64,000 nucleotides of DNA, from assembly GCF_004402595.1 (NCBI RefSeq), contig NZ_SOFY01000031.1, forward strand, positions 31,909 through 95,908. Reading direction: 5' to 3'. This DNA is from Cryobacterium shii (GTDB lineage: Bacteria; Actinomycetota; Actinomycetes; Actinomycetales; Microbacteriaceae). Shown piece after piece: positions 17,670 through 54,074 of this stretch. Every line of letters starts with the position of its first letter. The first letter of the stretch is position 1. Under the pieces are notes generated by a model. That model saw nothing but the letters and a program-made list of their open reading frames with translations, made no database searches and had not been told where the DNA came from. Both the position numbers and the translations under genes were made by a program.

Positions 17670-17707
17670 ACGTTTGGTTGAAGACATCGGCAGCTGCCTC
17701 ACCGTGT

Positions 17708-17745
17708 TGAGCCGGTCAGCATCGGTGCCAAATTTGACTGGCTCA
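17708..17745. terminator. hairpin between convergent genes
   Basis: TGAGCCGGTC (17708-17717) pairs with GACTGGCTCA (17736-17745) with one mismatch. It lies just after the IetS-like gene and touches the end of the convergent gene, so it may stop transcription in both directions. Confidence 0.5.
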
Positions 17746-25339: not shown

Positions 25340-25350
25340 GTGTGGCCCTT

Positions 25351-27632: not shown

Positions 27633-27649
27633 TTCAATCCTTATGGGAT

Positions 27650-27680
27650 GCTGGGTGCGATCCGTGCGACCGCACCCAGC
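27650..27680 (-). terminator. attenuator hairpin inside the ABC operon
   Basis: GCTGGGTGCG (27650-27659) pairs perfectly with CGCACCCAGC (27671-27680). No T run follows on the minus strand, so it may be a partial terminator or an mRNA-stabilising stem between the secreted-protein gene and the transporter genes. Confidence 0.6.
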
Positions 27681-27686
27681 AGCGAA

Positions 27687-28076
27687 CTAGTTGCTACGCC
27701 AGGACCCGACGATCTGAACTGTCACGGTGGTCCAGGTGTTGTTTGTGAGCGTCATCTGGGTGGTGGAGCCGGCGCCTATCGAGTTAGGCAGCGAGGCGCT
27801 ACTGCTGTCGCCCAGACCCTTGACTTCCGTTCCAAAGGTGTTCCCGGTTCGGAGTTTCGCGTTCACGGTGTAGTTCGAGCCGACCGAGTCCACGATGATG
27901 CCCCCGGCGACGCCGCTGCCGGCCTTGGTCTGGTTCCCAAACGTACGCGGCTGCTGGAGACTCGGAGTCGTCTCGTTGAAGCCTTGATACGACGTGCCGG
28001 CATAGGCGGCACCGCCGGCCGACACCATGATTCCCCCCAAGACGATGCTCAAGACGATCTTTGATTTGGTCTTCAA
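27687..28076 (-). CDS. small secreted protein with a dedicated ABC exporter
   Basis: From a TTG at 28076, preceded by GAGGAG at nine bases, the product is 129 aa: MKTKSKIVLSIVLGG, a hydrophobic core and an AYAG cleavage site near residue 25. A mature ~104-residue, Gly/Ser/Thr-rich, probably beta-rich domain follows, ending VTVQIVGSWRSN and lacking cysteine. The ATG at 28127 is less likely because it would bury the signal peptide. The gene leads the operon with two permeases and an ATPase, an arrangement typical of a bacteriocin-like secreted protein with self-protection. The function is inferred from context only. Confidence 0.65.
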   Translation of the reverse strand: MKTKSKIVLSIVLGGIMVSAGGAAYAGTSYQGFNETTPSLQQPRTFGNQTKAGSGVAGGIIVDSVGSNYTVNAKLRTGNTFGTEVKGLGDSSSASLPNSIGAGSTTQMTLTNNTWTTVTVQIVGSWRSN

Positions 28077-28386
28077 AAGATTCAACTCCTCGATAGTGGT
28101 GGCAAGGCATCTCCCGTGTGGAGGCACCCGGTTCAGTCATCTTGACTGCGCGGAAACACATACGTCAATAGAAAACGGGTTATTCGGTTTTTATTTTACT
28201 GAGAGCCGTCTCGTTCGACCCTCGGAGTTCGGAAGACGGGTCGGCCCGGCGAGGCAAATGGAGTCAGGGGCCATGGAGTCGTGCCCGTTCTCACTTCTTT
28301 GGACACCACGCCGACCAGTCGCAAAACCTGAAACATGCGGCTTCCTGCTCTGCGCATCAGCGATTGCACACAGGTACCCTTCGGGC
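28077..28386. other. divergent promoter interval
   Basis: About 310 bases separate the secreted-protein gene (minus) from the AbiV-like gene (plus). It includes an A/T-rich stretch (28155-28200) suited to the minus-strand promoter. No gene is supported here. Confidence 0.4.
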
Positions 28387-29247
28387 ATGAAGGTTCAACC
28401 TCGTGCGCTCGCTGCGCTTCTTCAAAAGCCCGTCGCCCAGCGGTTGCCCATCATCGCAGAGGGCCTGACATTGGTGGTTGAGCATGTCGGGGAACTGCGC
28501 CGAAGCGTTGCCACCTTGCAGAGTTTCGGACAGCTTCGCGCGGCGGCCATTCTCGATATCGTGGCCGGGGAGGAGGCCGCCAAGGCCCTAATTCTTCTTG
28601 ACCTGGTCCGCGTCGGCTGGGCAGACCAGGTGGTCGCCTCACGCCAAATCAGGAGTTTCAGCAGCCACCTGGCCCGCGGGATATACGCGGAGGTCAGCAT
28701 GATGAACCCGGGTTCTTTCCGTGACGTTCGCGAGATGGTCGCACGCCACCGCCCGAGTCAGTATCTCGACGGGCCGAACGACGTGGACTGGGTCTACCGC
28801 AACACGATTGAGTCGAAGCGCGAAGAAACGCTATACGTCGACTACGTGCAATACGAAGACGAGCACCGCTGGGTGTCCCCGGCGGAGAGCATCGTCTCGT
28901 CTCACTCTGCCTGGACGGAGGCGTCGAAACTGGTTCACGCTATGGAACGCAGCGGGCTTTTTTCATTGCGCGGATTGGAGTTGACAGCCGAGGCGTGGCG
29001 AGGCGCACAGATTGCGGACTCCATGACTTGGCCGGAAGTAGCAGGAAGGAGTGTTGGCATCCTCCGCGTCCTCAGTGCCGAAGGAACCCATCACCCCGCC
29101 TTCTCCGCCGAGGATGCGGAGCTCATCCGGGAGCACTGGACATTCCCGATGCACGGCTTGGACCTGTCGCGGCTTCAGGTTACGGAGGAGGAGCTGCAGA
29201 AAGAACGGGATGATGCATTCGCCAGACTTGCAAATGATTGGCTCTGA
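28387..29247 (+). CDS. AbiV-like abortive infection protein
   Basis: The 286-aa protein has an N-terminal helical domain matching the AbiV pattern: an EGLxLVxEHxGELxRSxATL helix, then GQLRAAAILDIVAGEEAAKALILLD, where an AbiV/HEPN-like helix pair normally carries the EE(A/L)GKA signature. The C-terminal half is helical and unassigned. AbiV in lactococci interferes with phage protein synthesis. The ATG at 28387 has little upstream Shine-Dalgarno signal. The gene is monocistronic in this window. Confidence 0.6.
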   Translation: MKVQPRALAALLQKPVAQRLPIIAEGLTLVVEHVGELRRSVATLQSFGQLRAAAILDIVAGEEAAKALILLDLVRVGWADQVVASRQIRSFSSHLARGIYAEVSMMNPGSFRDVREMVARHRPSQYLDGPNDVDWVYRNTIESKREETLYVDYVQYEDEHRWVSPAESIVSSHSAWTEASKLVHAMERSGLFSLRGLELTAEAWRGAQIADSMTWPEVAGRSVGILRVLSAEGTHHPAFSAEDAELIREHWTFPMHGLDLSRLQVTEEELQKERDDAFARLANDWL

Positions 29248-29319
29248 CGTTCCAGATTGCGTATTTCAGCGCGGCTATGCGGGCACCTCGCCATGATGCG
29301 CTCTCCTGCACAGACCTGT

Positions 29320-29922
29320 CTACTCCGTTAGGACGGCGTCCACGAGCTTTCCCAGTCGAACGACGGCTTCATAGTCCTCTCGGCTCACCATGTACCCGAT
29401 GAGTAAGTCCTTGTCGAGCTTGCCCAGCACGCGGAGCTCTCGAAGGTCGCGTAGCGCATCACGCTTCCCGGCCGCGTCGGCCCACCCGTTGTTGCCGTTC
29501 CAGAGAATCCGCTCGTAGAGCTTGGTCTCTGCTACTCCGACCGAATCGGGCACCTCGCGTGTTGCCACGTTGAATGCCCCGTTGGCTGCGGCCCAGCCGT
29601 GCATCCGCACAGTTGCGAATTCCACCACCCCGACCTGGCTCGTGCTGTCGCTGGGGAGCGCGCGGGAGAGCAGCTTGAGAGTGGGGTGAAGAATCACAAC
29701 CACGCGCGCCTGGTTCCCGAGATGCCCGGAAGACTTCTCTGTGACGAAGTCGGCACGTTTGAGTGACTCCGGCATCTGGTTCTTCAAGGGAACAGCGACT
29801 TGGAGCGGAAGGCCGGCGGCTCGCGCAATGAGCTGACCGAACTCGGCGCCGGGGTCAAAATTGTTCACTCTGTCTGCCCAGGGAATGTAGAAGTACTTGT
29901 GGGCGAGTAGCTGAGTTTGCAT
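29320..29922 (-). CDS. hypothetical protein, 200 aa
   Basis: The 200-aa protein begins MQTQLLAHKYFYIPWADRV and is unrecognised. The start at 29922 is chosen because CCGGAG lies six bases upstream; alternative ATGs at 29940 and beyond lack one. Charged and helical segments toward the C-terminus (ERILWNGNNGWADAAGKRDA) suggest a soluble protein. Directly upstream is a pair of DnaA-box-like sites, which makes a replication-related role worth testing, but no replication initiator motif is visible. Confidence 0.5.
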   Translation of the reverse strand: MQTQLLAHKYFYIPWADRVNNFDPGAEFGQLIARAAGLPLQVAVPLKNQMPESLKRADFVTEKSSGHLGNQARVVVILHPTLKLLSRALPSDSTSQVGVVEFATVRMHGWAAANGAFNVATREVPDSVGVAETKLYERILWNGNNGWADAAGKRDALRDLRELRVLGKLDKDLLIGYMVSREDYEAVVRLGKLVDAVLTE

Positions 29923-30447
29923 GGAATCTCCGGAAGTCATATCTCTGAGACTAAACAGAGCCGCCGACAAAGCCGTCGAGAGCATCAAATCGCCCTGCCG
30001 CCGGCCGGGCCTGTGGACAACTCTGTGTAATTGCGTTCGAATGTTGTGGATAAGTCCACGTCCTTGAGACGGAATCTTCTCCGCTGGGAACAGAACTGCT
30101 GAATACTTTGATGCTGCATTAGTGACCATATGGCCACTAATGGCCACGTGACGGCCCCTGGCGCTGGATTCGTCTACAAGCGACCAAGTTGGTCCTCCTT
30201 GCTGTCTTTGAGCGCTAGCGGCCATTTTAATAGGTCATATCGATAGCGCGCTGGTAAGATCTGTTAAAGCACGAACCCCGGTTGACAAGGTGTCCACCGC
30301 AATATCAAGGGGTGAAACCGGTCAATCCGGGGTCGTATTATTCCTGGACAGAATTACTCGACTCTAGACTTTTCTGCGTCAGCTCGCAATTGAGCCTGAC
30401 CGCAGGACGATTGACCGCAGTGCTTCCAAAGAGAGTAGGAATCACAT
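29923..30447. other. regulatory interval with DnaA-box-like sites
   Basis: No gene is supported in these 525 bases. They contain the DnaA-box-like pair (30012-30053), a short inverted GGCCACTAATGGCC motif near 30131 and, upstream of the YjzC-like gene, a TATTAT -10-like box (30336-30341) with TGAAAC at 30313-30318. Confidence 0.45.
30012..30053 (-). promoter_or_regulatory. pair of DnaA-box-like sites inside the element
   Basis: On the minus strand TTATCCACA (30045-30053) and TTGTCCACA (30012-30020) occur in the same order as at 11363-11438. A 22-base identity around the second box is shared by both places. Candidate roles are DnaA titration, an origin remnant, or copy from a dnaA region. Confidence 0.5.
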
Positions 30448-30636
30448 ATGAGTAGTTTGAAGCCCGGCAACGCAGCACCGAACTCCGGCCAGTACCGTCA
30501 GGTCGGACCGCGCGGCGGAAACACCGGCCACGAGGTGACGGCAGTGCAGGGCAAGCCCCTGCCGCCAACGCAGCGCCCTGGCCAGACGTACGTCCTGGCC
30601 GACCGCACCGCGAACGCGGCGGGCGGCAAGAAGTAG
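30448..30636 (+). CDS. YjzC-like small protein
   Basis: The 62-aa protein starts MSSLKPGNAAPNSGQYRQVG, the motif of the YjzC family of small bacterial proteins (xxFKPGxxAPxSGxYxxVxxxG). Its function is unknown in all bacteria I know of. GTAGGA precedes the ATG. Its stop overlaps the GTG of the following 43-aa gene by one base, so they are co-translated. Confidence 0.7.
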   Translation: MSSLKPGNAAPNSGQYRQVGPRGGNTGHEVTAVQGKPLPPTQRPGQTYVLADRTANAAGGKK

Positions 30637-30767
30637 TGGCCGCCCCGAAGGCCTCCGGTAAGCCGTCCAAGGGCGCACTCTCCGCCGCCGGCAAGAAGCT
30701 GGCGTCCACCGGCACCAGCAAGCCGGACAAGTCGAAGGCTGCTTCAACCCTCGGCAACCCCTGGTAA
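30636..30767 (+). CDS. 43-aa lysine/serine-rich small protein
   Basis: A GTG at 30636 overlaps the YjzC-like stop (TAGTG). The product MAAPKASGKPSKGALSAAGK continues with KLASTGTSKPDKSKAASTLG and ends NPW. It is too short for usual ORF calling, but its conservation as a truncated copy at 19014-19082 supports that it is real. It is basic and probably disordered. The last codons and stop lie in the left arm of a 27-bp inverted repeat. Confidence 0.65.
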   Translation: MAAPKASGKPSKGALSAAGKKLASTGTSKPDKSKAASTLGNPW

Positions 30768-30816
30768 TCGAGTGAGGCGGGGCCCTCGGCCCGCCTCACT
30801 CGATTACCAGGGGTTG
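30755..30816. terminator. 27-bp perfect inverted repeat over the stop codon
   Basis: The arms at 30755-30781 and 30790-30816 are perfectly complementary with an 8-base loop (GCCCTCGG). The left arm includes the last four codons and TAA of the 43-aa gene. It should form a very stable hairpin and a terminator, although no T run follows. Confidence 0.8.
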
Positions 30817-31298
30817 CCCGCCCGCGAGACGTGGCAAGAATGAGCGGCCGTTGCATCCCCGTTGCCTGGGACCTCGAGAATCCAAGAGCCCTTCCGGCTG
30901 GGGTGCCGACGTTTCTCACGGGAGAGGAGCGCGTCGTGCGGGCACAAACGCTGTTGCCGCCGGAACCCCGCAGACGATGTCACCTAGCCAGTTGCTGGCA
31001 CAGCTGCGCACCCTCGGGGTCAACCGAACTGTTCGGCGGCTTGTTCAGCCTGCCGATTGTGCATATGCGGTTGCTCAGCCCAAGGGGATTCCGGCAATTG
31101 GCGGACTTGTTTTCGAAGTTCGAATAGCTTAGACGGACGGCGCCCGTTCAGGGAGCGCCCCGACTCCTAAGCCCAACCGCTCCTGTGCGAGTGAGCTATG
31201 GCACCTCAGCTCGAAGTCCGACTGCGGCCCGGGCGCCATGCTGACTGGCCGTCCACGAACCACTTTTAATTGCGACCGGATCCTGTTAATCTGAAGCC
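30817..31298. other. interval without a supported gene
   Basis: Short plus-strand frames (30831-31132) overlap each other and lack ribosome binding sites. A/T-rich sequence just before 31299 probably contains the promoter of the sce7726-like gene. Confidence 0.4.
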
Positions 31299-31871
31299 AT
31301 GTGGGATGCCGATGTGCGAAGTGCGCTGCACGCAGCATTGTCGCGCACCCATGCGAACGAGTTGGGGACCACGCGTTTCGTTGACGAGCTAGGTCTCGCT
31401 GGGGAGGTCCGTGTCGACGTCGCCGTTCTGAACGGGTCGTTCTCGGGGTACGAGATCAAGAGTGCTCGCGACACGCTCCGCCGGCTCCCGAAGCAGGTCG
31501 AGGTCTATTCAAAGATCCTTGACCACGCAACTCTGGTCGTGGCCGACAACCATTTGGACCACGCCATCGACATGCTTCCATTCTGGTGGGGAATAATTAC
31601 GGCTTCCGCGGCGGATAAGGTCGTGTCCCTGTCAACCCTCCGCCCAGTTCAAGAGAACCCGGCCATAGACAAGAGTTATCTGGCAACCCTTCTCTGGCGT
31701 GATGAGGCCCTCGCAGCACTCACAGCCATGGGGCTCGATGCCGGGGTGCGCTCGAAGCCGAATATTCGGCTGTGGGGGCGCTTAGCCGAGAGTCTTTCGG
31801 TCGACGAACTCAGGGATTTGGTGAGAAATAGGCTGAGGACTAGGACAAATTGGCGAGCTGATGCAGCGTGA
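31299..31871 (+). CDS. sce7726 family protein, PD-(D/E)xK nuclease-like
   Basis: The 190-aa protein matches the sce7726 family. Its core reads VRVDVAVLNGSFSGYEIKSA, in which Asp40, Glu52 and Lys54 fit the D...ExK motif of restriction-endonuclease-fold nucleases, followed by a helix with KQVEVYSKILDHATLVV as in such folds. No experimental role is known to me. It converges with, and overlaps by 32 bases, a beta-family protein; the two families are frequently neighbours, so they probably form one system. Confidence 0.72.
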   Translation: MWDADVRSALHAALSRTHANELGTTRFVDELGLAGEVRVDVAVLNGSFSGYEIKSARDTLRRLPKQVEVYSKILDHATLVVADNHLDHAIDMLPFWWGIITASAADKVVSLSTLRPVQENPAIDKSYLATLLWRDEALAALTAMGLDAGVRSKPNIRLWGRLAESLSVDELRDLVRNRLRTRTNWRADAA

Positions 31872-32934
31872 CCTCAACGTGTCGGTGCGTGGCCCAGCGG
31901 CGCCAGACACTGGAGTTTCCAGGCTTCCCGCCCAAAGTCGCTAGGTCGATCCAGTTGTCCGTCTCTGTGCGAATCGGCTGCGAATAGAGCGGGTGAGCTT
32001 GAAGGATGCGTAGGGCCGGCGGAACCGCCTCCCCGCCTTTGCCCCTGCCTCCGCTGGCCTTGTAGAGTCCACCGCGGACGAACAACCACGCTTCCGAAGA
32101 TGTATATCGAAATGATGCACTGATGGTGAGAAGCTTGGGGTCGACGTCGAGCCGCGGGTCTGGGTTGGCGACGAGGTAGTCAAAGAATCCTGGCCGCAGC
32201 GCGGTCGGGAAGAGTGCCTGGCAAGTGGTCTCGAACTGCATCCAGTCGGACCGCTCAATCTCAAACACGCCCTTTCCTGTCGGAAGGTCCTTGGGCCACG
32301 CATGGCCTCCGATTGTGATTGTGCGCCAAGCGGAGGCGAAATGGGGCGCACTGAACTCGCCACGAAGCGCTGCGGTGACGAACGAGCTTCTCTCCGCCCC
32401 ATAGTCCAGAAACAGGTCTACTTCGGTGGTTGCTGTCCCGAGCTTCCTCAGCATTTCTGCGAGGATCGTTGAGTCCTGACTCGGCCACTCGCCATCCCCA
32501 AGCCGAATCGCGATACCCAAACCCTGAGCGGCGTTCAATGCGGAAGCACTCTCGAGGGTTTCATCTGTGCTCTCTGATGACACGAGGGGCATGAGCGGCA
32601 GGCCCAGCAACGCCGCCCTCTCCACTATCCAAGTGAGTGGATGCACGCCACGAGTCGGGGTCTCATCGTCCAAGAACGCCAGGTCGATATAGGCCGGGGC
32701 ACCGTTTCGCGCGGTGGCCAGCTTCTGGGGAATGGGCTGGAGATGCGCCTCAACCGACTTCGCGTACGCATCCTTGTCATAGTTCCACTCCCGGGGCGGG
32801 ACCATGAAGACGGGTGTGAAATCTGCGTGCTGAGCGGCAGTGAGCTGCCCGTACGCGAGCAGTTCTCCCTGTCTCGCCAGCGTGAACGGCCGGTAGTGGG
32901 GTGCGGGTATGTGAACTGGCTCGTGCACGCTCAT
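31840..32934 (-). CDS. beta-family (sce7725-like) protein
   Basis: The 364-aa protein resembles the phage T4 beta protein family, also called sce7725: an early YRPFTLARQGELLAYGQL motif, a TIM-barrel-like alternation through the middle, and a C-terminal region with HPLYSQPI and WRRWATHRHVEVTLHQL. It is soluble. It lies tail-to-tail with the sce7726 gene and shares 32 bases with it. The biological role of the family is unknown; a two-component defence module is a reasonable inference. Confidence 0.65.
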   Translation of the reverse strand: MSVHEPVHIPAPHYRPFTLARQGELLAYGQLTAAQHADFTPVFMVPPREWNYDKDAYAKSVEAHLQPIPQKLATARNGAPAYIDLAFLDDETPTRGVHPLTWIVERAALLGLPLMPLVSSESTDETLESASALNAAQGLGIAIRLGDGEWPSQDSTILAEMLRKLGTATTEVDLFLDYGAERSSFVTAALRGEFSAPHFASAWRTITIGGHAWPKDLPTGKGVFEIERSDWMQFETTCQALFPTALRPGFFDYLVANPDPRLDVDPKLLTISASFRYTSSEAWLFVRGGLYKASGGRGKGGEAVPPALRILQAHPLYSQPIRTETDNWIDLATLGGKPGNSSVWRRWATHRHVEVTLHQLANLS

Positions 32935-32994
32935 TCGCGTCTCAACTCATCTCAGGTCTGTTCGGTCTAGTAGATTGCACCGAGGCTAGCAAAT

Positions 32995-33016
32995 GAAACA
33001 GGTTGAACGGTATATT
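32995..33016 (+). promoter_or_regulatory. weak GBL-receptor operator overlapping the AfsA promoter
   Basis: GAAACAG, six bases, CGGTATA (32995-33014) has one good half-site and a degenerate one at ArpA-type spacing. The TATATT at 33011-33016, a likely -10 box, overlaps it, so a bound receptor would block transcription. Confidence 0.45.
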
Positions 33017-33062
33017 ACGCACTTGCGGCCCTCCCTTTGGGGTGAAAGCGCTGCTCGTTTTG

Positions 33063-33082
33063 CATACCGGCTGAACGGTACG
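33063..33082 (+). promoter_or_regulatory. GBL-receptor (ARE-type) operator upstream of the AfsA-like gene
   Basis: CATACCG, then GCTGAA, then CGGTACG. Both half-sites match the ArpA half-site CGGT(A/T)(T/C)G, and the six-base gap equals that of the ArpA palindrome. It is 55 bases upstream of the GTG start. Confidence 0.65.
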
Positions 33083-33137
33083 CTAAGCGCGCGAGGGGTT
33101 CTGCTCCTGGATCCTGGCCAAACTACATGGAGGTCTT

Positions 33138-34166
33138 GTGGGCGACCCATCCTTGAACTTTTCGCGCGCTGCTCCGCGACACCTCGTTCACCGGCAGTCC
33201 ATTGCCGAGGTATTCGTTACAGAGGTCCTGCGTAGTGGCCCCGACAGTTTTGTCGCAGGCGTGCAGTGGCCTCGGCGGCACGCAGTATTCTCCGCGCCGA
33301 TGACTCGCTTGGATTCGCACCTGGTCGCCGAAACTATCCGGCAATTGACGATAGTTCTGTGCCACCTTGAGTACGGGGTCCCCCTGGGTGCGAGATTCCT
33401 TATGCCCAGCCTCGGGCTCACGATTGAACCGGGTGCAGAAACTGAATTCTCCAACGCCTTGCCCGCGAACTGCACGGTGTTCCTCCATGGGGAAGGCATC
33501 GAACGCAAACGGTCCGGCGAGCTCCGCAGCATACGCGTGCGGACAGATTTTCAACGGAATGGACAGGTTGTCGGACGCGGGCATGGTGACGCGACTCTCG
33601 CGACGGAAGGCGTCTACCGGCGGCTCCGTGGGACCGCGATTGACAACATGTCGCCCGCGTGGCCGAGGCGGGAATTGGACGTCCTTCCGCCTCGCCTTGT
33701 TGGGCACCTGTCGACCTCGGATGTTGTCCTATCCGCAGGCACTGTAAAAAACAAGTGGCCGCTGACAGTCGACACCTCGAATACGGTGTACTTCGACCAC
33801 CCCCTCGACCACATTCCCGGGATTCTGGCGGTTGAGGCTATGCGGCAAGCGATCCGTGTTGCATCCATGATGCCCGAGGCAGAGCTCGCCTTCTTTGAGG
33901 CCACATTCCTTCACGTGCTCGAGTTCGACTCTCTCGCAGTAGTTCAGCTGACCGAGTCGGATGACTTGTTCCACATGAAAATCGTCCAATTCGGCAGAAC
34001 AGCTGTTCACGCTGTCGCTGGCCTGCACGCTGCGCGAGTCAGCGTGTCGGGAAGACTCGGTCCAGCAGTGTCGGTATTGCGGACAGGGAATCCTTGGCCA
34101 CAATCGCGGGCAGGAGAATCTCCCACATCTCTCGAACCCGCTGCAACAGGTCATCGCGCCCAGTGA
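33138..34166 (+). CDS. AfsA-like gamma-butyrolactone synthase
   Basis: The 342-aa protein has two AfsA hotdog repeats. The first carries WPRRHAVFSAP and YGVPLGARFLMPSL; the second carries DTSNTVYFDHPLDHIPGI and EAMRQA. AfsA/ScbA enzymes join a beta-ketoacyl-ACP with dihydroxyacetone phosphate, the key step to A-factor-type signals. GGAGG stands five bases before the GTG at 33138. Two operator-like palindromes lie upstream. The last ~40 residues run antisense into the TetR gene (128-base overlap) and do not resemble the family, so the original stop may have been lost. Confidence 0.85.
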   Translation: MGDPSLNFSRAAPRHLVHRQSIAEVFVTEVLRSGPDSFVAGVQWPRRHAVFSAPMTRLDSHLVAETIRQLTIVLCHLEYGVPLGARFLMPSLGLTIEPGAETEFSNALPANCTVFLHGEGIERKRSGELRSIRVRTDFQRNGQVVGRGHGDATLATEGVYRRLRGTAIDNMSPAWPRRELDVLPPRLVGHLSTSDVVLSAGTVKNKWPLTVDTSNTVYFDHPLDHIPGILAVEAMRQAIRVASMMPEAELAFFEATFLHVLEFDSLAVVQLTESDDLFHMKIVQFGRTAVHAVAGLHAARVSVSGRLGPAVSVLRTGNPWPQSRAGESPTSLEPAATGHRAQ

Positions 34167-34674
34167 AGACGTCTGAGACCATTTGCACTCCCGTGAACGC
34201 GGGAATGATGAAGTGCGCCAGCTTGTCGGAGTCGGTTTCGGGGAGAAGTTCTCCGGCAACCACCGCCGCCCGCGTCAGCGACTCGAAAGTGTCCAACCAG
34301 TCCTCGTATGGAAGCGACACGGTCCGGTCGAACGTGGATGCCTCGGTAGTGAGACGGATGCCCGCGCGAACAATGGGGTCGGTGACCAACCGCTCAGCCA
34401 AGTCGACGCACAACCGCATCATCGATTCAAGCGGGCCGTCTGCGGAATCAAGGACCCGCTTCGCCCCCGCGGTAGCTATCTCGTGTTCAGCCTCAATCAC
34501 CGCCAAGGCAACATCTTCCTTGGACTGGAAGTGAAAATACAACGCTCCTTTGGTGACACCGGCGGCCTCCGTGATGTCCGAAAGGGTGGCACCGCCGAAC
34601 CCCAGGCGATAGAAGACTTCTGCGGCGCCGACGACAACTCGCTCACGAGTAAGTCTCGCTCGATCCTGTTTGAT
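34039..34674 (-). CDS. TetR-family gamma-butyrolactone receptor
   Basis: The 211-aa repressor has an N-terminal HTH (RARLTRERVVVGAAEVF ... TLSDITEAAGVTKGALYFHF) and the characteristic GBL-receptor ligand domain (TDPIVRAGIRLTTEA, PYEDWLDTFE, FTGVQMVSDVFTGR). Such proteins bind ARE operators and release them when the butyrolactone binds. No ATG, GTG or TTG precedes the HTH in frame before a TAG; an ATC at 34674 with GGGAGG six bases upstream is the best start. The first ATG (34542) would delete most of the HTH. The gene is convergent with the AfsA-like gene and divergent from the reductase gene. Confidence 0.82.
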   Translation of the reverse strand: MKQDRARLTRERVVVGAAEVFYRLGFGGATLSDITEAAGVTKGALYFHFQSKEDVALAVIEAEHEIATAGAKRVLDSADGPLESMMRLCVDLAERLVTDPIVRAGIRLTTEASTFDRTVSLPYEDWLDTFESLTRAAVVAGELLPETDSDKLAHFIIPAFTGVQMVSDVFTGRDDLLQRVREMWEILLPAIVAKDSLSAIPTLLDRVFPTR

Positions 34675-34744
34675 GTTCTGCCTCCCAGCAATAGCGCTCA
34701 GGCAATGCTACCGCGCCGGTTTTTCGGATCACCATCGACAGTAG

Positions 34745-35689
34745 ATGCTGATGAAACATAGTCTTTCGGGGCGGCGCGTAACCGTGCTGGGCGCGCATGG
34801 GTTCGTTGGCTCGGCCGTTATGGCCGCTTCGGAGGCGCGTGCTGGCATCGCAGTGACGGGTCTGGTGCGGCGATATGAAGGGACCAAGGCACCTGCCCAC
34901 GGACGCTCATTTGTACTCGGCGACGTGAGCGACGAGGACTCGGTCCGAAGGGCCGTCCAAGGTGCAGACTGCGTTGTCCACGCGGCCAGCTACATCGGAT
35001 ACGACCCGGGCCTCTGTGAGCAGACAAACGTCCTCGGCACGCAAGTCGTGGCAGCCGCCTGCGCCAAGGAGGGCATCAGCCGGCTTGTCTACGTGAGTAC
35101 CTCCGCCGTGTACGGCCCTGGCCCGCACCGCAATGCCCAGGAAGGCGAGCTCGCGGTCAAGCCCGCGTCGACGCTCAGCTCCAGCAGAGCCGTGGCGGAG
35201 CGCATAGTGCTCAGCATGGGCGGGGCGGTCGTCCGTCCACACTTCGTGTACGGAATCGGGGACCGATGGTTCGTTCCCGGAGTTCTCCGCCTCGCCGAGG
35301 ACCTTGGTGGTCTCGTCGCAAGCGGGACGGCGCTCCATAGCGTGATTCACATAGGAGACCTTGGCGCGGCACTTGCCGCTCTGGCGCTGAAAGAAGGCGA
35401 CCTCAACTCGAACGTCTTCCACGCTGCGGGTGCCGAGCCTTCTTCTCTGCGGGAGGTACTGTCGGCTGTCGCCCCCCACGCGGCTTTCATGAACCGCTGC
35501 CTCTCCGACAAGGAGGCCGAGACCTTTTCGCACCAGAGGGGGCTCTCCTCCCATCAAATCAGCTTGGTGTCCACGGAACACACTTACACCTCGACGAGGC
35601 TTCGTGAGGAAATTGGCCTCGATTTGGGCGGCGGGTTCAGGCCTTCCACCGAACAGCTGGCCTGGTACGAGAGGCCAACCGCCCTCTGA
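34745..35689 (+). CDS. NAD(P)-binding epimerase/reductase of the GBL cassette
   Basis: The 314-aa extended short-chain dehydrogenase has the Rossmann motif GAHGFVG at residues 16-22, VHAAS and YVSTSAVYG. NAD-dependent epimerase-like proteins commonly accompany AfsA homologues and are thought to reduce the butyrolactone precursor. The usual YxxxK pair appears as LSSSR before AVAER, so the catalytic Tyr and Lys seem to be replaced; this could mean altered chemistry or a structural role. Two in-frame ATGs (34745, 34751) are possible starts. It is divergent from the receptor gene. Confidence 0.75.
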   Translation: MLMKHSLSGRRVTVLGAHGFVGSAVMAASEARAGIAVTGLVRRYEGTKAPAHGRSFVLGDVSDEDSVRRAVQGADCVVHAASYIGYDPGLCEQTNVLGTQVVAAACAKEGISRLVYVSTSAVYGPGPHRNAQEGELAVKPASTLSSSRAVAERIVLSMGGAVVRPHFVYGIGDRWFVPGVLRLAEDLGGLVASGTALHSVIHIGDLGAALAALALKEGDLNSNVFHAAGAEPSSLREVLSAVAPHAAFMNRCLSDKEAETFSHQRGLSSHQISLVSTEHTYTSTRLREEIGLDLGGGFRPSTEQLAWYERPTAL

Positions 35690-36056
35690 GCGCGGTTCGT
35701 CGCAATGACGCGGCAGCTGATCCTTTGCTCCCGTCGACCAACTCACACCACTCGCGCCGGCCCCATCGCGCGACGAGTAGGGCGCAGTGCACACGAGGCA
35801 CTTCCGCACGGGGCACTTCCGCCGTAGGCACTCAAGCGCTCTTCTTGCGGCGACCAAGAGGCAACGTGCGTAGTTCGGGACATGGTTAAGGGCGAGTGGT
35901 GCCGGCGTCCCATCGGACGGAATCATGCACAGCTCCATCTCAGAGCTTAAAGTTTTAGATACCGTCTAACCGGTTTTCTGCTATGTTCCTCACATCAGTT
36001 CTTCTACGGGGTGCGTCACAGACGGCGAGCCGGGGGGCTGAGAGGGGAGTGTTCAA
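35690..36056. other. leader region of the bacteriocin gene
   Basis: About 370 bases without a gene. The left half is unremarkable. The right half holds the GBL-operator-like palindrome at 35958-35977, a -10-like TATGTT at 35982-35987, and GAGGGGAG as the ribosome binding site of the bacteriocin gene. Confidence 0.5.
35958..35977 (+). promoter_or_regulatory. GBL-receptor-type operator upstream of the bacteriocin gene
   Basis: GATACCG, then TCTAAC, then CGGTTTT: the ACCG/CGGT core and six-base gap of ArpA-type sites. It ends four bases before a TATGTT -10-like box (35982-35987), where bound receptor would block transcription. The resemblance to the site at 33063-33082 is direct; binding is inferred. 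Confidence 0.55.
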
Positions 36057-36377
36057 ATGAATCGGAAAATTGTGGGTGCCTTGTCGAGCATGGCTGTGGC
36101 CACCGCCTTGGTCCTGAGCGGCGCGATGGCCGCTTCGGCTACGACCACGTATCCGGAGGGCGGGACGTGGAACTACGGGGTGCGGTCCGGAGGAATCTAC
36201 GGCAGTGGTGGCCAGGTGTACTCCGAGTATCAGCACACGAGCCGAACACACAAGGCCACTGCCTGCGGCTACGGCGGGTGTGCCTATTCGGGCTGGAAGA
36301 GTCCGTCTGCGCTGGCGTCCGCCTATTGGTCCCCGATGGCGTCCTCAGGCAACAACGCCTACTACGACGTGCAGTAG
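36057..36377 (+). CDS. lactococcin-972-like bacteriocin precursor
   Basis: The 106-aa precursor has a signal peptide (MNRKIVGALSSMAVATALVL to an ASA site near residue 28). The mature domain begins TTTYPEGGTWNYGVRSG, with VYSEYQHTSRTHKATAC and a final NNAYYDV. The GGTWxxGV...YSxYxHxSKxHxAT pattern is that of lactococcin 972, a secreted bacteriocin that binds lipid II and blocks septum formation. Two cysteines (CGYGGC) could form a disulphide. GAGGGGAG precedes the ATG. An immunity-type ABC cluster follows, as is usual for this family. Confidence 0.85.
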   Translation: MNRKIVGALSSMAVATALVLSGAMAASATTTYPEGGTWNYGVRSGGIYGSGGQVYSEYQHTSRTHKATACGYGGCAYSGWKSPSALASAYWSPMASSGNNAYYDVQ

Positions 36378-36387
36378 TAGCGAGGAT

Positions 36388-36428
36388 GCGAGCGGTCGGC
36401 GAGGGGTCCTTGCTCACCGGCCGCTCGC
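36388..36428 (+). terminator. hairpin after the bacteriocin gene
   Basis: GCGAGCGGTCGGCGAG (36388-36403) pairs with CTCACCGGCCGCTCGC (36413-36428) with two mismatches. It lies between the bacteriocin gene and the accessory genes and probably limits read-through. Confidence 0.65.
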
Positions 36429-36499
36429 GTTCCCAAGAATGCCCGAACCTGTCCAGCTCGCCACCGCGAGCGACACCATGACTCTGAAAGCAGTAGCTG

Positions 36500-37102
36500 A
36501 TGAACGCAGGCGTATTTAGCACCCGGAGCCTCGCCGTCGCAGGGCTGCTCCTGGTCGCGGGGACGTTGTTGACGGCCTGTTCAGCGACAGGATCGACCGC
36601 CTCAGTTCCCTCCAGCGGGCCGTGGGCCTCAGAATTCGCTGAGAACTACAAACGAGCGGACAGCGACTTCACGCGCAGCGTATTGGTCGATGGCGTGATC
36701 TCGGAGCAGGAATTCGCAGAGACCATCGATGGATTTCGGCGCTGCCTCAGGTCTCACGAGATCAGCATTTCCGACTATCGGTTCGATGGCTCCTTTCGTA
36801 CGAGTTTTCCGCCTGAACTGGGGAACGACCAGGCCAACACGCTAACGAAGGGCTGTTCTCGCTCGTCAGGGGAGGACTTGATTGCATCCCTCTATACGTG
36901 GGTGCATCGCAACCCTAAGAATGTCGACGAGACGCGTATCATCGTCGACTGCCTGATCAGGTCGGGAGTTGTGTCCACTGCTTACAAGGTAGACGACTAC
37001 CTCGCTGGGGCTATTGCCGACAAGTATCCCTTTTCCGACGAGAAGTCGGGTCGAGAGGCTTTGGAGACTTGCCGCATGGATCCTCTAGGGCTGGGCAAGT
37101 GA
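36500..37102 (+). CDS. lipoprotein of the bacteriocin cluster
   Basis: The 200-aa protein has a lipoprotein signal peptide with lipobox LLTAC (cysteine at residue 27), so the mature form is anchored to the outer face of the membrane. The mature part is helical and acidic, with four further cysteines (RRCLR, KGCSR, DCLIR, ETCRM). It is not a recognised family. Its place between the lactococcin-972-like gene and the ABC transporter genes suggests immunity or a helper role. Confidence 0.65.
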   Translation: MNAGVFSTRSLAVAGLLLVAGTLLTACSATGSTASVPSSGPWASEFAENYKRADSDFTRSVLVDGVISEQEFAETIDGFRRCLRSHEISISDYRFDGSFRTSFPPELGNDQANTLTKGCSRSSGEDLIASLYTWVHRNPKNVDETRIIVDCLIRSGVVSTAYKVDDYLAGAIADKYPFSDEKSGREALETCRMDPLGLGK

Positions 37103-37166
37103 CGCAACACCACCCCATCTTCACCCAAGGCATTCTGATGCGCCCCGCGAGTCGGGAGCAACACAC

Positions 37167-38264
37167 ATGCGCAGCCACTTGAATCGCCGACTCGGGCTGG
37201 TGGGCTTGGCTGGGATTGTGCTTGTGGCGTTCGGCTTCACGGCCGGCTTGGCATTGGCCGTCCCTCCCGCTGTGCCGCCATCGCTCGCAAAGGACAGGAA
37301 CGAGTCCTCCAAGTTCGTTCTCGTGCGCCACGAGCTCAAGGACAGCCAAGATGTTCAGCTCAACGTGAAGACGGGCAGTCAAGCACTGCTGTCCGTGCCC
37401 GGTTCCGGCATGGTCACGGCGTTGAATTGCTCTATGGGTCAACAATTAAACGCCTGGGAGTCCAACATCTCCATAGACGGCGGTCCAGTGCTCAACCTGT
37501 CAACATCGACTCCATTGTGGCGTGACCTGAGAATCGGGGACGCCGGTGCAGACGTCGAGGCCATCCAAACTGAACTTCGACGTTTGGGATATTCGGTGAC
37601 TGCCGACGGAGTGCTCGGGGAGAGCACGATCCGCATCGTGAATGAACGTCTCGAAGAGCTCGGTGCCACCGCCACCGACCCCACCCTTCTCTCGCGGTCG
37701 CGAATCATGTGGCTGCCGGCGCCCTCGGTCATTGCTGCCAGTTGCGCGGCAGCTCTCGGTGCCCCGATTGCTGCAGGCCAGCCCGTTGCCGACCTGCAGC
37801 CACCCGTTACTGCCGTCGCCGTCGTAAACATGCCAATGGACCTCCTGCCCGGGAATCGTGTGGTCGCCATAGACGATGTCCGGTTCGTCGTTGATGAGGC
37901 AGGCCAGATCAGCTCAGGTGATGATTTGGTGCGTTTCGCGAGCCTTCCGGTCTATTTGGCATCCAACGGCCCCGCCGCGGGAGTTGGCGCTTCGTCCACC
38001 AACGGGGTCTCGGGCAGTCCGACCGCCCTGCCTGGAGGCATGAGCGCCCAACTCGAACTCGCCGAGGCAATCGAGGCATGGGCCGTCCCTCCGGGTTCGC
38101 TGTACTCAATTCGTGGGAACCGGGCCTGTGTGTCCGAGAATGGCCGTGGCGTCAAGGTCACCGTCGCCGGATCTGAACTTGGGAAGTCGTACGTGACATT
38201 TGAACTACCGCGCCAAGCGCCGGCATCCGTCGACGTGGAACCGGCTCAGAAGCTCACGTGCTAG
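37167..38264 (+). CDS. secreted/membrane-anchored adaptor with peptidoglycan-binding domain
   Basis: The 365-aa protein has an N-terminal membrane anchor (residues ~8-32) and an extracellular part. A peptidoglycan-binding-1 domain (WRDLRIGDAGADVEAIQTEL RRLGY, residues ~115-150) is inserted in a membrane-fusion-like beta scaffold. Such adaptors are typical of actinobacterial bacteriocin ABC systems. It overlaps the ATPase gene by seven bases, so adaptor, ATPase and permease form a MacAB-like complex. It would either export the bacteriocin or remove it from the cell wall. Confidence 0.72.
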   Translation: MRSHLNRRLGLVGLAGIVLVAFGFTAGLALAVPPAVPPSLAKDRNESSKFVLVRHELKDSQDVQLNVKTGSQALLSVPGSGMVTALNCSMGQQLNAWESNISIDGGPVLNLSTSTPLWRDLRIGDAGADVEAIQTELRRLGYSVTADGVLGESTIRIVNERLEELGATATDPTLLSRSRIMWLPAPSVIAASCAAALGAPIAAGQPVADLQPPVTAVAVVNMPMDLLPGNRVVAIDDVRFVVDEAGQISSGDDLVRFASLPVYLASNGPAAGVGASSTNGVSGSPTALPGGMSAQLELAEAIEAWAVPPGSLYSIRGNRACVSENGRGVKVTVAGSELGKSYVTFELPRQAPASVDVEPAQKLTC

Positions 38265-38911
38265 CGCTCAACGAACAGCGAGAAGCAGTAGGCGCGGGCG
38301 CGGGCAGAGCCCGGGCCCAAGTAGACTTGTGCGATGTCCGCCACAAGTTCGCGGGCGGGGAATTCCTCTTCCGACCGCTCAACGCAACCCTGCTCCCGGG
38401 ACAGCGTTACGCCCTGACCGGAGCTTCAGGTTCGGGCAAATCGACTCTACTGAGCATTCTGGCTGGCTGGCTTGATCCGAGCGAGGGCACGGTCCTGCGG
38501 CACGGTCTGCAGAGCATCGGATGGGTATTTCAGAATCCGCACGGGTCAGCTCGCAGATCCGTCGTCGACCATGTCGTGTTGCCTTTGCTGGCGACGGGAG
38601 CGTCCCGACGCCACGCCGAAACGCAAGCTCGCCTAGTGCTCGAAGCGTTCCAGCTGGCACACCGGGCTGACGATGCGTTCAGCGTTCTCTCCGGAGGCGA
38701 AGCCCAGCGTTTGATGCTTGCGCGGGCCGTTGCGTCTTCCCCCGACCTTCTCCTTGTCGATGAGCCAACAGCGCAACTCGACATGAGGACGGCCGAGACG
38801 GTCAACACGGCGCTTCAATTAGTCTCCGCGGGTGGAAGTATCGTCGTCGTCGCGACGCATGACGAGCGGACGGCTGACGCCTGCGACCAGACAATTGCGC
38901 TTTCTGAATGA
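38258..38911 (+). CDS. ABC transporter ATPase of the bacteriocin cluster
   Basis: The 217-aa ATPase shows Walker A GASGSGKSTL, a Q-loop FQNPHG, the signature LSGGEAQRLMLARA, Walker B LLLVDEPTAQLD and the switch histidine in VATHDE. It is of the MacB/LolD class. It overlaps the adaptor gene upstream and the permease gene downstream (four bases). It would power the transporter that confers export of, or immunity to, the lactococcin-972-like peptide. Confidence 0.88.
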   Translation: MLALNEQREAVGAGAGRARAQVDLCDVRHKFAGGEFLFRPLNATLLPGQRYALTGASGSGKSTLLSILAGWLDPSEGTVLRHGLQSIGWVFQNPHGSARRSVVDHVVLPLLATGASRRHAETQARLVLEAFQLAHRADDAFSVLSGGEAQRLMLARAVASSPDLLLVDEPTAQLDMRTAETVNTALQLVSAGGSIVVVATHDERTADACDQTIALSE

Positions 38912-39978
38912 CGATGCGCCTAAGAAGTGTTGTCTCGGAGGCGCTGCGCAATGTTGGGACACGAAGTAGCCGACCACTGCTCAGCTTTGCTCTGTTCGCA
39001 ATAGTTGTGGGAGCCCTTGCACTGTTCGACCTCTTTGGAATCAAGGCGATCCTCTCTGAGTCTCGAGCATTCTTGAACTCGGGGGCAGCGATATCCATAA
39101 TCAGTGCGCCTGGTGAAATCGACGGGGCAGCATGTGACAACCTGAATTCGCTCTCGGGAGTCAACGCTGCTGGGGCAATCGCAGAGAGCGTACCCATCCG
39201 CTTCCTTGCTTTGCCGTCATCGGCGGTCCCCGTGAAGCGCGTATCACCCGGATTCGTCGAGCTGCTCGCAACCCGCTCTGACTCCTCGGTTGCTGGCCTC
39301 TACCTGTCGAGCGAGTTGGCGCGCGCACTCGCTGTGAACGTGGGCGATCCAGTGCAGACTGCGCCTGGCACAGCATCCGTGGCAGGGGTATATGACTACC
39401 CCGACGACGGACGGGCACCGGGTCTTGGCTGGGCCGTTCTGGTCGTTGAACCGGCAGCAGGGATGTTCGACGCCTGCTGGGAGAGCGTCCCCAACGCCGT
39501 ATCTACTGGCGGAGACTATTTACTCACCACGGTTTCAGAAAATCCCACAGAAAGCCCGACGTTCGGGCAGCTGAACACCACGCTGGGCAAGAAGTTCGAC
39601 GCTCGGCACGAGTTCATCAATCGTCCGTCCTCAATGGTTGTCGTGGCTGCGGGCGCATTTGGACTCATGCTTGGCTTCGGGTCCAAACGCGTCAGGCGCC
39701 TTGAGCTTGCGTCTGCCCTCCACGTAGGTGTCACGAAGTCGGCACTCGTCGTTCAGGTCGTGATTGAAGAAGCGGTCTGGCTGGTGGCGGCAAACGCAGT
39801 CGTCCTTGGGGCCGCCGGATGGGTCATCCAATCCGAACTCGACGTAGATGCCCTAGTCGTCTTCGCAAATGGGCTTCGGACTGCATTCTCGGCCACGGCA
39901 TGTGTGTTCATAGGTGCGGCGGCCTCAGTCTTCATGACTCAGGAAAAGGACCTTTTCCGATACTTCAAGGCTCGCTAG
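38908..39978 (+). CDS. MacB/FtsX-like ABC permease
   Basis: The 356-aa protein has one N-terminal transmembrane segment (residues ~25-45), a ~210-residue extracellular domain, and three C-terminal membrane segments (about 245-262, 285-308, 320-345), the FtsX/MacB layout. Cysteine pairs in the outer domain may form disulphides. It is translationally coupled to the ATPase. Confidence 0.8.
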   Translation: MTMRLRSVVSEALRNVGTRSSRPLLSFALFAIVVGALALFDLFGIKAILSESRAFLNSGAAISIISAPGEIDGAACDNLNSLSGVNAAGAIAESVPIRFLALPSSAVPVKRVSPGFVELLATRSDSSVAGLYLSSELARALAVNVGDPVQTAPGTASVAGVYDYPDDGRAPGLGWAVLVVEPAAGMFDACWESVPNAVSTGGDYLLTTVSENPTESPTFGQLNTTLGKKFDARHEFINRPSSMVVVAAGAFGLMLGFGSKRVRRLELASALHVGVTKSALVVQVVIEEAVWLVAANAVVLGAAGWVIQSELDVDALVVFANGLRTAFSATACVFIGAAASVFMTQEKDLFRYFKAR

Positions 39979-40069
39979 CTGTTGCAGTAAATACGCGGCA
40001 CACACCCGGCCGGATTGGATCGCACCTTCCTCAAAGCCGCTCGGCGTCGTGTGTCAACGATGGGATGAA

Positions 40070-41476
40070 ATGTCTGATGTGCTCGGAGTTCTAACGCACT
40101 TGCCTGCTGCCGCCGGCGCGGCCGCCATCATTTATGGGCTTGTCTATTTTGGGCTGAGGAGACTGCGGCCACGTCCGCGGTTGCATGTTCTGGTCGCCGA
40201 GTACGCGCTAGTGGCCTGGGCGTCCCTGTTCCTGTTCGTGACCCAATTCATGCAATTCGGCAATGGTCTGGGCAAACTGTTTAATCTAATACCTCTTCGG
40301 TCGTTCTACATTGCCTGGAACTACGGCATCGAGAACGCCGAGAGCCTTGCGCAAGTTGGCCTCAACGTCGTGATTACCGCGCCACTTGGATTTCTACTCC
40401 CGGTGGTATCGTCGCGAAGATTCCACCGCTTCACGCCGATTCTGTTGGTCGGCTTGGCGCTGACGGTGGCCACGGAACTATCCCAAATGACAACGGGGAG
40501 AAGCGCGGACATCGACGACGTCCTTGCCAATTCTGTGGGCGTTGTCGTCGGATATTCGCTCAACGTGCTCGTGCAAGCCGCCGCAGGCTACCGTCGGCGA
40601 CACGCGACGCACCCGACACTCGCCGTGAGGCAACGACCTGAACGACTCATCGCTGCAATCTCAACTCTCGCACTCGCGTGTGCACCGTTTATTGCTGTGG
40701 TGGCAAAGAACAACCTGGACCCAGTTGGCCACGTGTACTACGGGCAGATACTGCCCACGGAGGTTGACACGTCCGGACCCGTATCGCCCGACGGCGGCGA
40801 GAGCGCGATCTACCGAAATGTGCAGCTCGAATCAACCACAGCCCTCCTGGCGCGCCTGCGCGGGTATACAGGATCCTCAGACAGCTGCTCGTTCGCGGAC
40901 GAAACATGGACATGTGCGACCGGTACTTCCAAACGGCTGTTCGTAGATGCTTTCAACCGGTGGAGTATCGCCTACGACTACGGGGATTCAAGGGCCCCGA
41001 ACGTGGACCTCATTCCAGAGGAGCCCCTTGCCGTCGACCACGCCCACGTCGCGCTTCGCGCCCTTCACGTCGACCCCGACACCTTGGCGTATGTGGGGTT
41101 GGCTGACGGGTGGGGTGACCCCTACAGGCATCTCGTCTTCAGGCAACGCGTGCAGACGAAGGGCCAAATGGTTTGGGGCAACGTCACCGTCACCATTGGT
41201 GCGAATGGCTCCGTTGTTGAGGTCTCCGATAGGCGCACCTACAACGCGCTGTATGAGCGCGTCAGCACGATTTCTCCTCAGGCCTCCCTGCGGATCGCCG
41301 CGGAGGTCGGGCTGGACGGAGGCCCCGGGACAGCAGAGATATCGGATCTACAGGCGTCGTTCTGGTTCAATGAGGACACGGGCTACCTCATACCTACATG
41401 GCAGGTCAGCGCGGAATACACATCCGGTGGGGGCCAGACTCTTGATTGGGAATCAAACATCGACGCGAGACGATGA
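40070..41476 (+). CDS. VanZ family membrane protein
   Basis: The 468-aa protein carries a VanZ domain in its first ~180 residues: FNLIPLRSF, VVITAPLGFLLPV, ELSQ and DIDDVLANSVGVVVG, in about five membrane segments. A further membrane segment and a ~240-residue extracellular domain follow. VanZ gives low-level teicoplanin resistance by an unknown envelope effect. The ATG at 40070 is preferred over 40049 because GGGATGA lies just upstream. Its place behind the bacteriocin transporter suggests envelope protection. Confidence 0.75.
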   Translation: MSDVLGVLTHLPAAAGAAAIIYGLVYFGLRRLRPRPRLHVLVAEYALVAWASLFLFVTQFMQFGNGLGKLFNLIPLRSFYIAWNYGIENAESLAQVGLNVVITAPLGFLLPVVSSRRFHRFTPILLVGLALTVATELSQMTTGRSADIDDVLANSVGVVVGYSLNVLVQAAAGYRRRHATHPTLAVRQRPERLIAAISTLALACAPFIAVVAKNNLDPVGHVYYGQILPTEVDTSGPVSPDGGESAIYRNVQLESTTALLARLRGYTGSSDSCSFADETWTCATGTSKRLFVDAFNRWSIAYDYGDSRAPNVDLIPEEPLAVDHAHVALRALHVDPDTLAYVGLADGWGDPYRHLVFRQRVQTKGQMVWGNVTVTIGANGSVVEVSDRRTYNALYERVSTISPQASLRIAAEVGLDGGPGTAEISDLQASFWFNEDTGYLIPTWQVSAEYTSGGGQTLDWESNIDARR

Positions 41477-53703: not shown

Positions 53704-53982
53704 TTACCGATTCAGGCGCCCGGGCCAAAGGTCGACGCCGAATCCACTCTCAAGCTTGGCGATGGTCGCGAGGTCCGGCCAGGACCGGCCACGAAGAACG
53801 GAAAGCATTGTCGAGGGGTCCACGCCAACATCCAGGGACGCAGCCCGGATGCTTCGGTCGCCGATGGCGGCCTGAACGTTGAGGGCGAACTGACGCGCAA
53901 CCTCTCCCACGGGGTCTACCGAGGGCATTTCGGGCCAACCGTCCGCGAGTTCGCGTGGGGCGGGTCGATGGGGCCGGGACAT
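53704..53982 (-). CDS. XRE-like regulator divergent from the recombinase/transposase operon
   Basis: From the ATG at 53982 the product is 92 aa. Residues ~25-85 form a helix-turn-helix of the XRE type: ALNVQAAIGDRSIRAASLDV, then GVDPSTMLSVLRGRSWPDLA and TIAKLESGFGVDLWP. It is separated by ~90 bases from the divergent recombinase-like gene, whose promoter lies in between, so it is the obvious candidate regulator of transposition genes. Its own operator was not identified. Confidence 0.72.
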   Translation of the reverse strand: MSRPHRPAPRELADGWPEMPSVDPVGEVARQFALNVQAAIGDRSIRAASLDVGVDPSTMLSVLRGRSWPDLATIAKLESGFGVDLWPGRLNR

Positions 53983-54065: not shown

Positions 54066-54074
54066 AATCCGCAA

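Follow-up and report, generated by a model that had tools for sequence, protein, structure and literature searches.

Background

Does the gamma-butyrolactone (GBL) signalling cassette of a defence island in Cryobacterium shii govern the secreted-peptide operons on either side of it? The locus lies in a stretch of 64,000 nucleotides (contig NZ_SOFY01000031.1, positions 31,909 to 95,908 of the forward strand), which is called the window here and to which all coordinates refer unless another locus is named. GBL signalling is known chiefly from Streptomyces, where it regulates antibiotic production. In the present case the cassette appears to be a switch built into an acquired island, and its output would be ribosomally made secreted peptides. 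We propose, with a probability of roughly 0.6, that an island-borne butyrolactone switch controls the synthase gene afsA, a bacteriocin operon to its right and a second operon to its left, encoding a secreted peptide and an ATP-binding cassette (ABC) transporter, through a ScbR-type repressor. Gene identities from curated models, the placement of operator-like sites, the ends of the island, the distribution of the synthase and the clade to which it belongs are observed; production of a lactone, binding of the repressor, joint induction of the operons and killing of competitors by the peptides are predicted from them.

Results

The GBL cassette

The original prediction had placed an AfsA-like synthase, a TetR-type receptor and an NAD(P)-binding reductase side by side in this region, and the curated models bear it out. 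The synthase gene (33138-34166, plus strand, 342 aa) passes NF041195, the equivalog model for ScbA/BarX (236 bits, cut-off 200), and encodes two AfsA hotdog domains (PF03756, 108.8 bits against a Pfam cut-off of 24). Its frame is uninterrupted, and it is the only AfsA locus in this genome. Loss of conserved synthase residues, named beforehand as grounds for abandoning the prediction, was not seen: the protein keeps 52 of the 87 columns that are conserved in at least 95% of 60 Streptomyces rows, including the polar and charged E65, R68, Q69, H76, D224, H225, E233 and Q237; a catalytic role for individual residues is putative. No solved structure was found for AfsA, and the open-access literature yielded no paper on the active site of ScbA. 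The reductase gene (34745-35689, plus strand) matches the NAD-dependent epimerase/dehydratase family (PF01370, 87.8 bits); all of its NCBIfam matches fell under their cut-offs, and it matches no GBL-specific model. Epimerase-like proteins, Sfb5 and ScbC, are proposed in a passage of PMC7480387 to act in GBL biosynthesis.

The receptor gene (34039-34674, minus strand) passes the ScbR model NF041196 (203.5 bits, cut-off 150), and among solved structures its product comes nearest to AvaR1 and other GBL receptors, together with CprB. On the minus strand the frame is open from 34707 to 34039, across the whole conserved domain, without an ATG, GTG or TTG ahead of the helix-turn-helix; the first usual start, TTG at 34542, falls within the DNA-binding domain. 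The likeliest start judged from the sequence is an ATC (34672-34674, minus strand), six bases after GGGAGG. A standard gene caller would clip the DNA-binding domain at such an apparent ATC start. The recognition helix of AvaR1, GVTKGALYFHF, is kept, as are, by our own mapping onto the residues described in part of PMC7347384, equivalents of Thr108, Trp127, Phe161, Thr161/162 and Gln165. Among the ligand-coupling residues of AvaR1 (Gln64, Thr108 and Trp127), the same mapping finds Thr and Trp kept and Gln64 replaced by Glu63. The synthase and receptor genes are convergent and overlap by 128 bases (34039-34166). By gene identity, synthase, receptor and reductase are confirmed as a GBL cassette; that the cassette makes a lactone is a prediction.

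Operator-like sites precede afsA and both peptide operons

Footprinting of SfbR/SfbR2 in Streptomyces filipinensis gave the operator consensus AAACVGNNBVNNCSGTTT (PMC7480387). This pattern is Streptomyces-derived and is applied here to a Microbacteriaceae host. Operator-like sites (autoregulatory elements, ARE) that match it stand 96 bp before the start of the left peptide gene (28173-28190, no mismatch), 124 bp before the start of afsA (32996-33013, one mismatch) and 80 bp before the start of the bacteriocin gene (35959-35976, one mismatch). A second, weaker site before afsA (33064-33081) has more than two mismatches to the Streptomyces consensus and is an exact copy of the simpler pattern ATACCGN6CGGT. 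Operator sites are thus present by pattern in the synthase promoter, where binding is predicted. Across the 3.49-Mb genome, the full consensus is matched with no more than one mismatch at 13 places, and three of these fall here, inside 8 kb of the island.

A position matrix was built from 21 sites in other genomes, with the window excluded, although those sites had been picked with the same consensus. When the 64 kb were scanned with it, 35959, 32996 and 28173 took the first three ranks (23.2, 21.9 and 19.5) and 33064 the fifth (15.1), whereas in 12 Markov sequences of island length the third-best score did not exceed 11.0. The simpler pattern, allowed one mismatch, gave eight matches against 3.05 expected, a number reached in one of 100 shuffles. 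Its exact form occurs four times in the genome: twice here, once in ribosomal-protein genes (L031) and once before another TetR gene (L034).

Related operons and cassettes elsewhere served for comparison. No site at one mismatch or fewer was found in the promoters of 20 other lactococcin-972 operons, which were chosen from the 24 places described below where the precursor family lies near the permease family (a number that includes our own locus); one of the 20 is in genome G263, whose synthase genes sit on other contigs. None turned up either at 18 loci with relatives of the left operon. Among related synthase loci, 15 of 32 carry at least one such site (L037 and L126 being one locus), and 11 of these 15 are from Arthrobacter, all with a site at 12.52-12.64 kb of the locus. 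In these Arthrobacter loci (L054-L059, L061-L064 and L068) the match, at about 12.5 kb and with zero or one mismatch, lies downstream of the GBL cassette. Gene content was read by eye in L054, one of ten closely related Arthrobacter loci; there the site precedes sugar-transferase-like genes, and the output may accordingly be a surface polysaccharide. In genome G192 (L042) a perfect match at 10778 lies between an interrupted synthase gene and a pair of genes of the AurF-type oxygenase and asparagine-synthase types (10868-14166).

The two peptide operons

The right operon (36057-39978, plus strand) opens with a lactococcin-972-family bacteriocin precursor (36057-36377) that passes both PF09683 (35.3 bits, cut-off 22) and TIGR01653 (39.9 bits, cut-off 32.1) and whose product is predicted to kill competitors. 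The genes that follow on the same strand encode a lipoprotein-like product (36500-37102) with a lipobox recognized by eye, no Pfam or NCBIfam match and relatives in Agromyces allii; a membrane-anchored, peptidoglycan-binding-like protein (37167-38264; PF01471 at 21.8 bits, just under the cut-off of 23) with relatives in L038, L041 and L043; an ABC ATPase (38258-38911; PF00005, 97.8 bits); and an ABC permease (38908-39978) that matches neither Pfam nor NCBIfam. Against TIGR03608, the lactococcin-972 ABC model, the ATPase scores 114.4 bits, under the cut-off of 254.85. A VanZ-like protein is encoded directly after the operon (40049-41476) and possibly serves self-protection.

The left operon (24692-28076, minus strand) begins with a secreted peptide of 129 aa that starts at TTG (27687-28076) and has no Pfam match at cut-off. 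Two membrane proteins follow, one (26814-27632) without Pfam or NCBIfam match and with relatives in 17 of 349 family genomes, our own included, and one (25351-26880) of uncertain start, hydrophobic by eye and without Pfam match; an ABC ATPase (24692-25498; PF00005, 100.4 bits) completes the operon. Eight related peptides with signal sequences, one of them truncated, were recovered from places where the membrane protein also has a relative; AGT near the mature start and an end of the form G-aromatic-x-S/T-N are common to most of them. The window peptide and those of L203-L208, L212 and L217 make up an unnamed family of small secreted peptides encoded beside two membrane proteins. That the left peptide is a bacteriocin is a guess from operon architecture. 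An AlphaFold model of it from the single sequence, with no alignment, was unusable (predicted local distance difference test score 37.5).

Synthases beside transporter operons in other genomes

PF09683 was tried as a marker of pairing between synthase and bacteriocin operon and set aside: only two of the 23 family genomes with a synthase match have it, our own and G263, and in G263 it is on another contig than the synthase matches. The lactococcin-972 precursor is thus not common to the paired loci, and the permease family was used as the marker instead. Among 398 Microbacteriaceae genomes, 80 carry members of that family, at 113 places in all, and 47 carry PF09683, at 57 places; a permease lies within 6 kb of 24 of the 57 PF09683 places, and the family therefore marks this type of operon.

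A permease of the family lies no more than 10 kb from a synthase match in four of the 23 synthase genomes, namely our own, Leifsonia Root4, Agromyces allii (where two cassettes are so paired) and G371; uniform density would give 0.056 (about 0.06) pairings within 12 kb. This count is a guide, since the permease profile (A5) includes rows taken from the very loci being counted, and islands may be a favoured place for both kinds of gene. The Leifsonia and G371 permeases, which are 20 and 18% identical, entered the profile by gene order, and a tblastn search with the window permease matched neither genome.

Searched with the window proteins, A. allii matches the permease (1.6e-52 and 1.2e-40), the ABC ATPase, the membrane protein and the lipoprotein, and Leifsonia and G371 match the ABC ATPase (2.8e-22 and 2.9e-20) and the membrane protein (1.4e-6 and 4.4e-7). 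Among the 96 loci so searched, operon-specific matches appeared only in these three genomes and in Frigoribacterium Leaf186, where 65 aa of the membrane protein are matched (L098, 6677-6871) about 3 kb from a GBL synthase. That a synthase of the same clade adjoins a related transporter operon in three other genomes speaks for the proposed switch.

Some features of these loci stand apart from the count. In A. allii (L041, 2500-19900) each of the two GBL cassettes is accompanied by a small secreted peptide and a transporter operon, and the cassettes adjoin a TraG/TraD-type gene and, by eye, an integrase-like gene. In Leifsonia Root4 (L038/L053, about 9.7-18.7 kb) the synthase and transporter operon are present, no receptor or reductase match was found in 20 kb, and an operator-like site with two mismatches stands just ahead of a secreted peptide of 81 aa. 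At cut-off, Pfam matches none of the small secreted peptides encoded close to the synthase in A. allii and G371 or 8 kb from it in Leifsonia.

Distribution and descent of the synthase

Within the genus the synthase is confined to our genome and absent from the 56 others of the 57 searched. In the family, the 23 of 398 genomes with a match include our own, eight exceed the model cut-off, and the nearest relative is 49% identical. A tree of 104 of 106 candidate rows was computed (two rows shorter than 200 aa dropped out, and L005, L028 and L030, being duplicate or broken pieces, had not been entered); for other rows the program gave a long-branch warning. The window synthase groups with that of Leifsonia Root4 (99/96) in a clade of nine rows, Agromyces among them, that is restricted to Microbacteriaceae (99/95), and the 60 Streptomyces rows form another group. 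Seven distinct loci make up the clade, and four of them are paired with a transporter.

A recent import from Streptomyces is rejected on this placement and on the 49% identity of the nearest relative. Close plasmid relatives were also sought: AfsA homologues turned up in 160 plasmid records, mostly from Streptomyces and Rhodococcus and all below 60% identity, so that mobile DNA with such genes on board is nothing new. The cassette has the appearance of island cargo, and no recent donor for it was found. The suggestion that a signalling language is spreading horizontally accordingly holds as far as acquisition of the island goes, and is not supported for recent spread from Streptomyces.

Synthase genes are interrupted, by a stop or a break into two frames, in L042 (G192, 9635-10531), in L043 (G371, near 9800) and in L041 (A. 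allii, 6251-7227), with open receptor frames; these loci are possibly listeners that no longer signal, or else assembly errors. In L040 (G073, 13788-18507) a GBL cassette lies near a large protein without assignment and a small WXG100-like one (a weak match of 17.1 bits, cut-off 27.3), perhaps cargo of type VII secretion.

The island and its insertion site

The island spans about 11.9-56.9 kb (some 45 kb) and has a G+C content of 60.1%, against 69.1 and 66.6% in the flanks. Its presumed ends are 49-bp repeats at 11897-11945 and 56910-56958, identical at 44 of 49 positions, and a tRNA-Leu(cag) gene (56999-57083, minus strand) adjoins the right one. The left repeat resembles a terminator hairpin, and genomes of the genus have many more stretches like it elsewhere; its role as an attachment site is for that reason putative. 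Several spaced copies are found in some of those genomes, for example in G398:C23 (889140, 892459 and 901260).

Seven stretches of the same genus were read at the insertion place (G314, G431, G430, G416, G420, G403 and G405). From the left neighbour gene to the tRNA side the gap is about 1.0 kb in G314, and 0.8 kb in G431 (with the tRNA read as gag). It measures 4-5 kb in G416, G420 and G430 and reaches 11 kb in G403; the G405 stretch ended short of the tRNA and the G430 match stops before it. G314 is not a clean empty site, because its gap holds 100 bp like window positions 53714-53813. The tRNA-Leu site has the look of a hotspot where insertions have stacked up. A site-specific integrative element is expected to show direct repeats beside a tRNA gene and a difference between filled and unfilled sites, and both are seen here. 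A frame at 54015-54998 resembles XerD weakly (25.1 bits, cut-off 178), and no further integrase was seen among the window open reading frames scanned.

Cargo includes genes of the ApeA, IetA/IetS, AbiV and AbiTii types, a methylase and an FRG protein. From the repeats, the tRNA gene, the lower G+C content, the gap of about 1 kb in a relative and the absence of the synthase from the rest of the genus, the island looks acquired. Its carriage of the cassette in a Microbacteriaceae genome agrees with what the original prediction had said; a second copy of the same island was not found. The prediction also passed over the operator-like sites and the two secreted-peptide operons, which are the likely output.

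Discussion

How the switch would work

AfsA would make a butyrolactone precursor that the epimerase-type reductase would help to finish. As long as the signal is scarce, the ScbR-type repressor would occupy the ARE sites before afsA and both peptide operons. Once enough carrier cells make the signal, it would bind the repressor, which would leave the DNA; afsA would then rise by positive feedback and both peptide operons would be released together. When AvaR1 takes up its ligand, the DNA-binding domains move and the protein loses its hold on DNA (PMC7347384), and by analogy the signal may free the three promoters here. A wider reading, to which we give slightly less than even chances, is that the Microbacteriaceae GBL cassette travels with interchangeable secreted-peptide operons and places its operator on them, so that carriers would release several bacteriocins together only when carriers are sufficiently numerous; the island would then count itself.

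Several observations tell against the proposed switch. A site in the flank (6051) has the fourth-best matrix score (17.0), and one Markov sequence reached 19.7. With up to two mismatches allowed, matches to the consensus are no more frequent in the window than expected (13 found, 13.4 expected), and a reversed-pattern control gave 11 rows against 23 in the genome, so that many of the 13 genome places are chance. The stretch between receptor and reductase is free of operator-like sites, and a scan of 27900-36200 found no sigma-70-like promoter at the operators (three sites in all, 1.7 in shuffles). Three of the seven clade loci, two from Agromyces mediolanus and one from G073, are unpaired. The receptor has the unusual start codon ATC, and it has Glu63 where AvaR1 and four aligned relatives have Gln; these two features of the sequence are the main reasons to doubt that it functions normally.

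Alternative explanations

It is conceivable, if unlikely, that the cassette works and has its true targets elsewhere in the chromosome, the peptide operons being fellow passengers and the operator-like sites coincidental. Islands do gather unrelated cargo, the reversed pattern matches in the genome as well, and ten of the 13 places lie outside this 8-kb stretch, one of them perfect (C42:31760); of the two of these ten that were viewed, one (L034) precedes the other TetR gene mentioned above. Coincidence would nevertheless have to explain how three sites came to lie in 8 kb, all of them 80-124 bp ahead of a start and together at the top of a scan with a matrix made without the window, as well as homologous operons that lack sites elsewhere and same-clade synthases that adjoin related transporters in three genomes.

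We think it improbable that the switch is decaying, with the receptor made poorly or not at all and the peptide operons consequently uncontrolled or the cassette silent. Decay would fit the lack of a usual start before the receptor's DNA-binding domain, the afsA frame that overruns the end of its aligned homologues into the receptor gene, and the interrupted synthases of G192, G371 and one A. allii copy. Yet no stop breaks the receptor frame within the conserved domain and its score is well above cut-off, a good ribosome-binding site lies six bases ahead of the ATC, and the synthase frame here is uninterrupted. A further question is the chemistry of the hormone, which with rather low probability would be a related furan or butenolide instead of a classical butyrolactone, the logic of the circuit being unchanged. 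AfsA-family enzymes serve other hormone classes too, the reductase matches no GBL-specific model, and residue 63 of the receptor pocket differs; the synthase, on the other side, passed a model specific to ScbA/BarX. Butenolide loci are defined in a passage of PMC7347384 by a P450 and an acyl-CoA oxidase. No P450 or acyl-CoA oxidase/dehydrogenase of such butenolide/avenolide-type loci was present among the 39 window open reading frames scanned with Pfam.

Significance and relation to known systems

If the proposed switch is real, an island may carry its own population-sensing control of weapon production, and phage-defence islands, bacteriocins and lactone signalling, usually studied apart, would be joined in one system. 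One receptor and three promoters would make a small test system, and silent bacteriocins of Microbacteriaceae could perhaps be woken with butyrolactones.

Butyrolactone regions have been flagged in Microbacterium (PMC7438953), in Frigoribacterium Leaf186 (PMC12823222) and in Agromyces and Rathayibacter (PMC11294650). These are gene-cluster calls, and the passages concerned are silent on receptor sites, outputs and mobile context. In PMC12823222, Leaf186 is credited with two regions like those for ribosomally synthesized and post-translationally modified peptides besides its butyrolactone region, and a lactococcin-972 bacteriocin and butyrolactone are both mentioned, in different strains. A passage of a 2016 review stated that there was at that time no evidence of quorum sensing for Microbacterium (PMC4748050). 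Lanthipeptide clusters are described as enriched near defence systems (PMC12715929), so the proximity of defence genes to bacteriocin genes is already known. In the open-access literature we found nothing that joins lactococcin 972 with gamma-butyrolactone, or butyrolactone, A-factor, bacteriocin, quorum sensing and genomic island, and one paper, PMC7670052, turned up for gamma-butyrolactone, AfsA, ScbR and bacteriocin together; the operator-linked coupling of a GBL cassette to lactococcin-972-type and other secreted-peptide operons in a defence island appears, within that literature, to be new.

A close parallel in gene content is provided by the Streptomyces GBL clusters (scbA/scbR/scbC of S. 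coelicolor and sfb of S. filipinensis; as described in part of PMC7480387), in which synthase, receptor and epimerase-type gene also stand together and sites of the footprinted consensus precede the synthase. Unlike them, the present cassette lies in an acquired Microbacteriaceae defence island, its predicted targets are secreted-peptide operons, and its receptor gene has no upstream site. The bacteriocin operon resembles those of lactococcin 972, a peptide reported to bind lipid II and block septum formation (PMC9964109), in having a precursor above the PF09683 and TIGR01653 cut-offs followed by a membrane protein, ABC ATPase and permease; it differs from the known operons in the operator-like site of GBL-receptor type in its promoter and in a TIGR03608 match that is under cut-off. 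In function, there is a likeness to the putative GBL cluster of Ruegeria pomeroyi DSS-3, whose genes, in the account given in part of PMC7426152, were apparently gained horizontally and are tied to the killing of competitors. There the requirement for killing was shown with mutants, that account identifies no killing agent, and the cluster lies on a proteobacterial megaplasmid, whereas here killing is predicted from genes and the peptide operons that would carry it out can be named.

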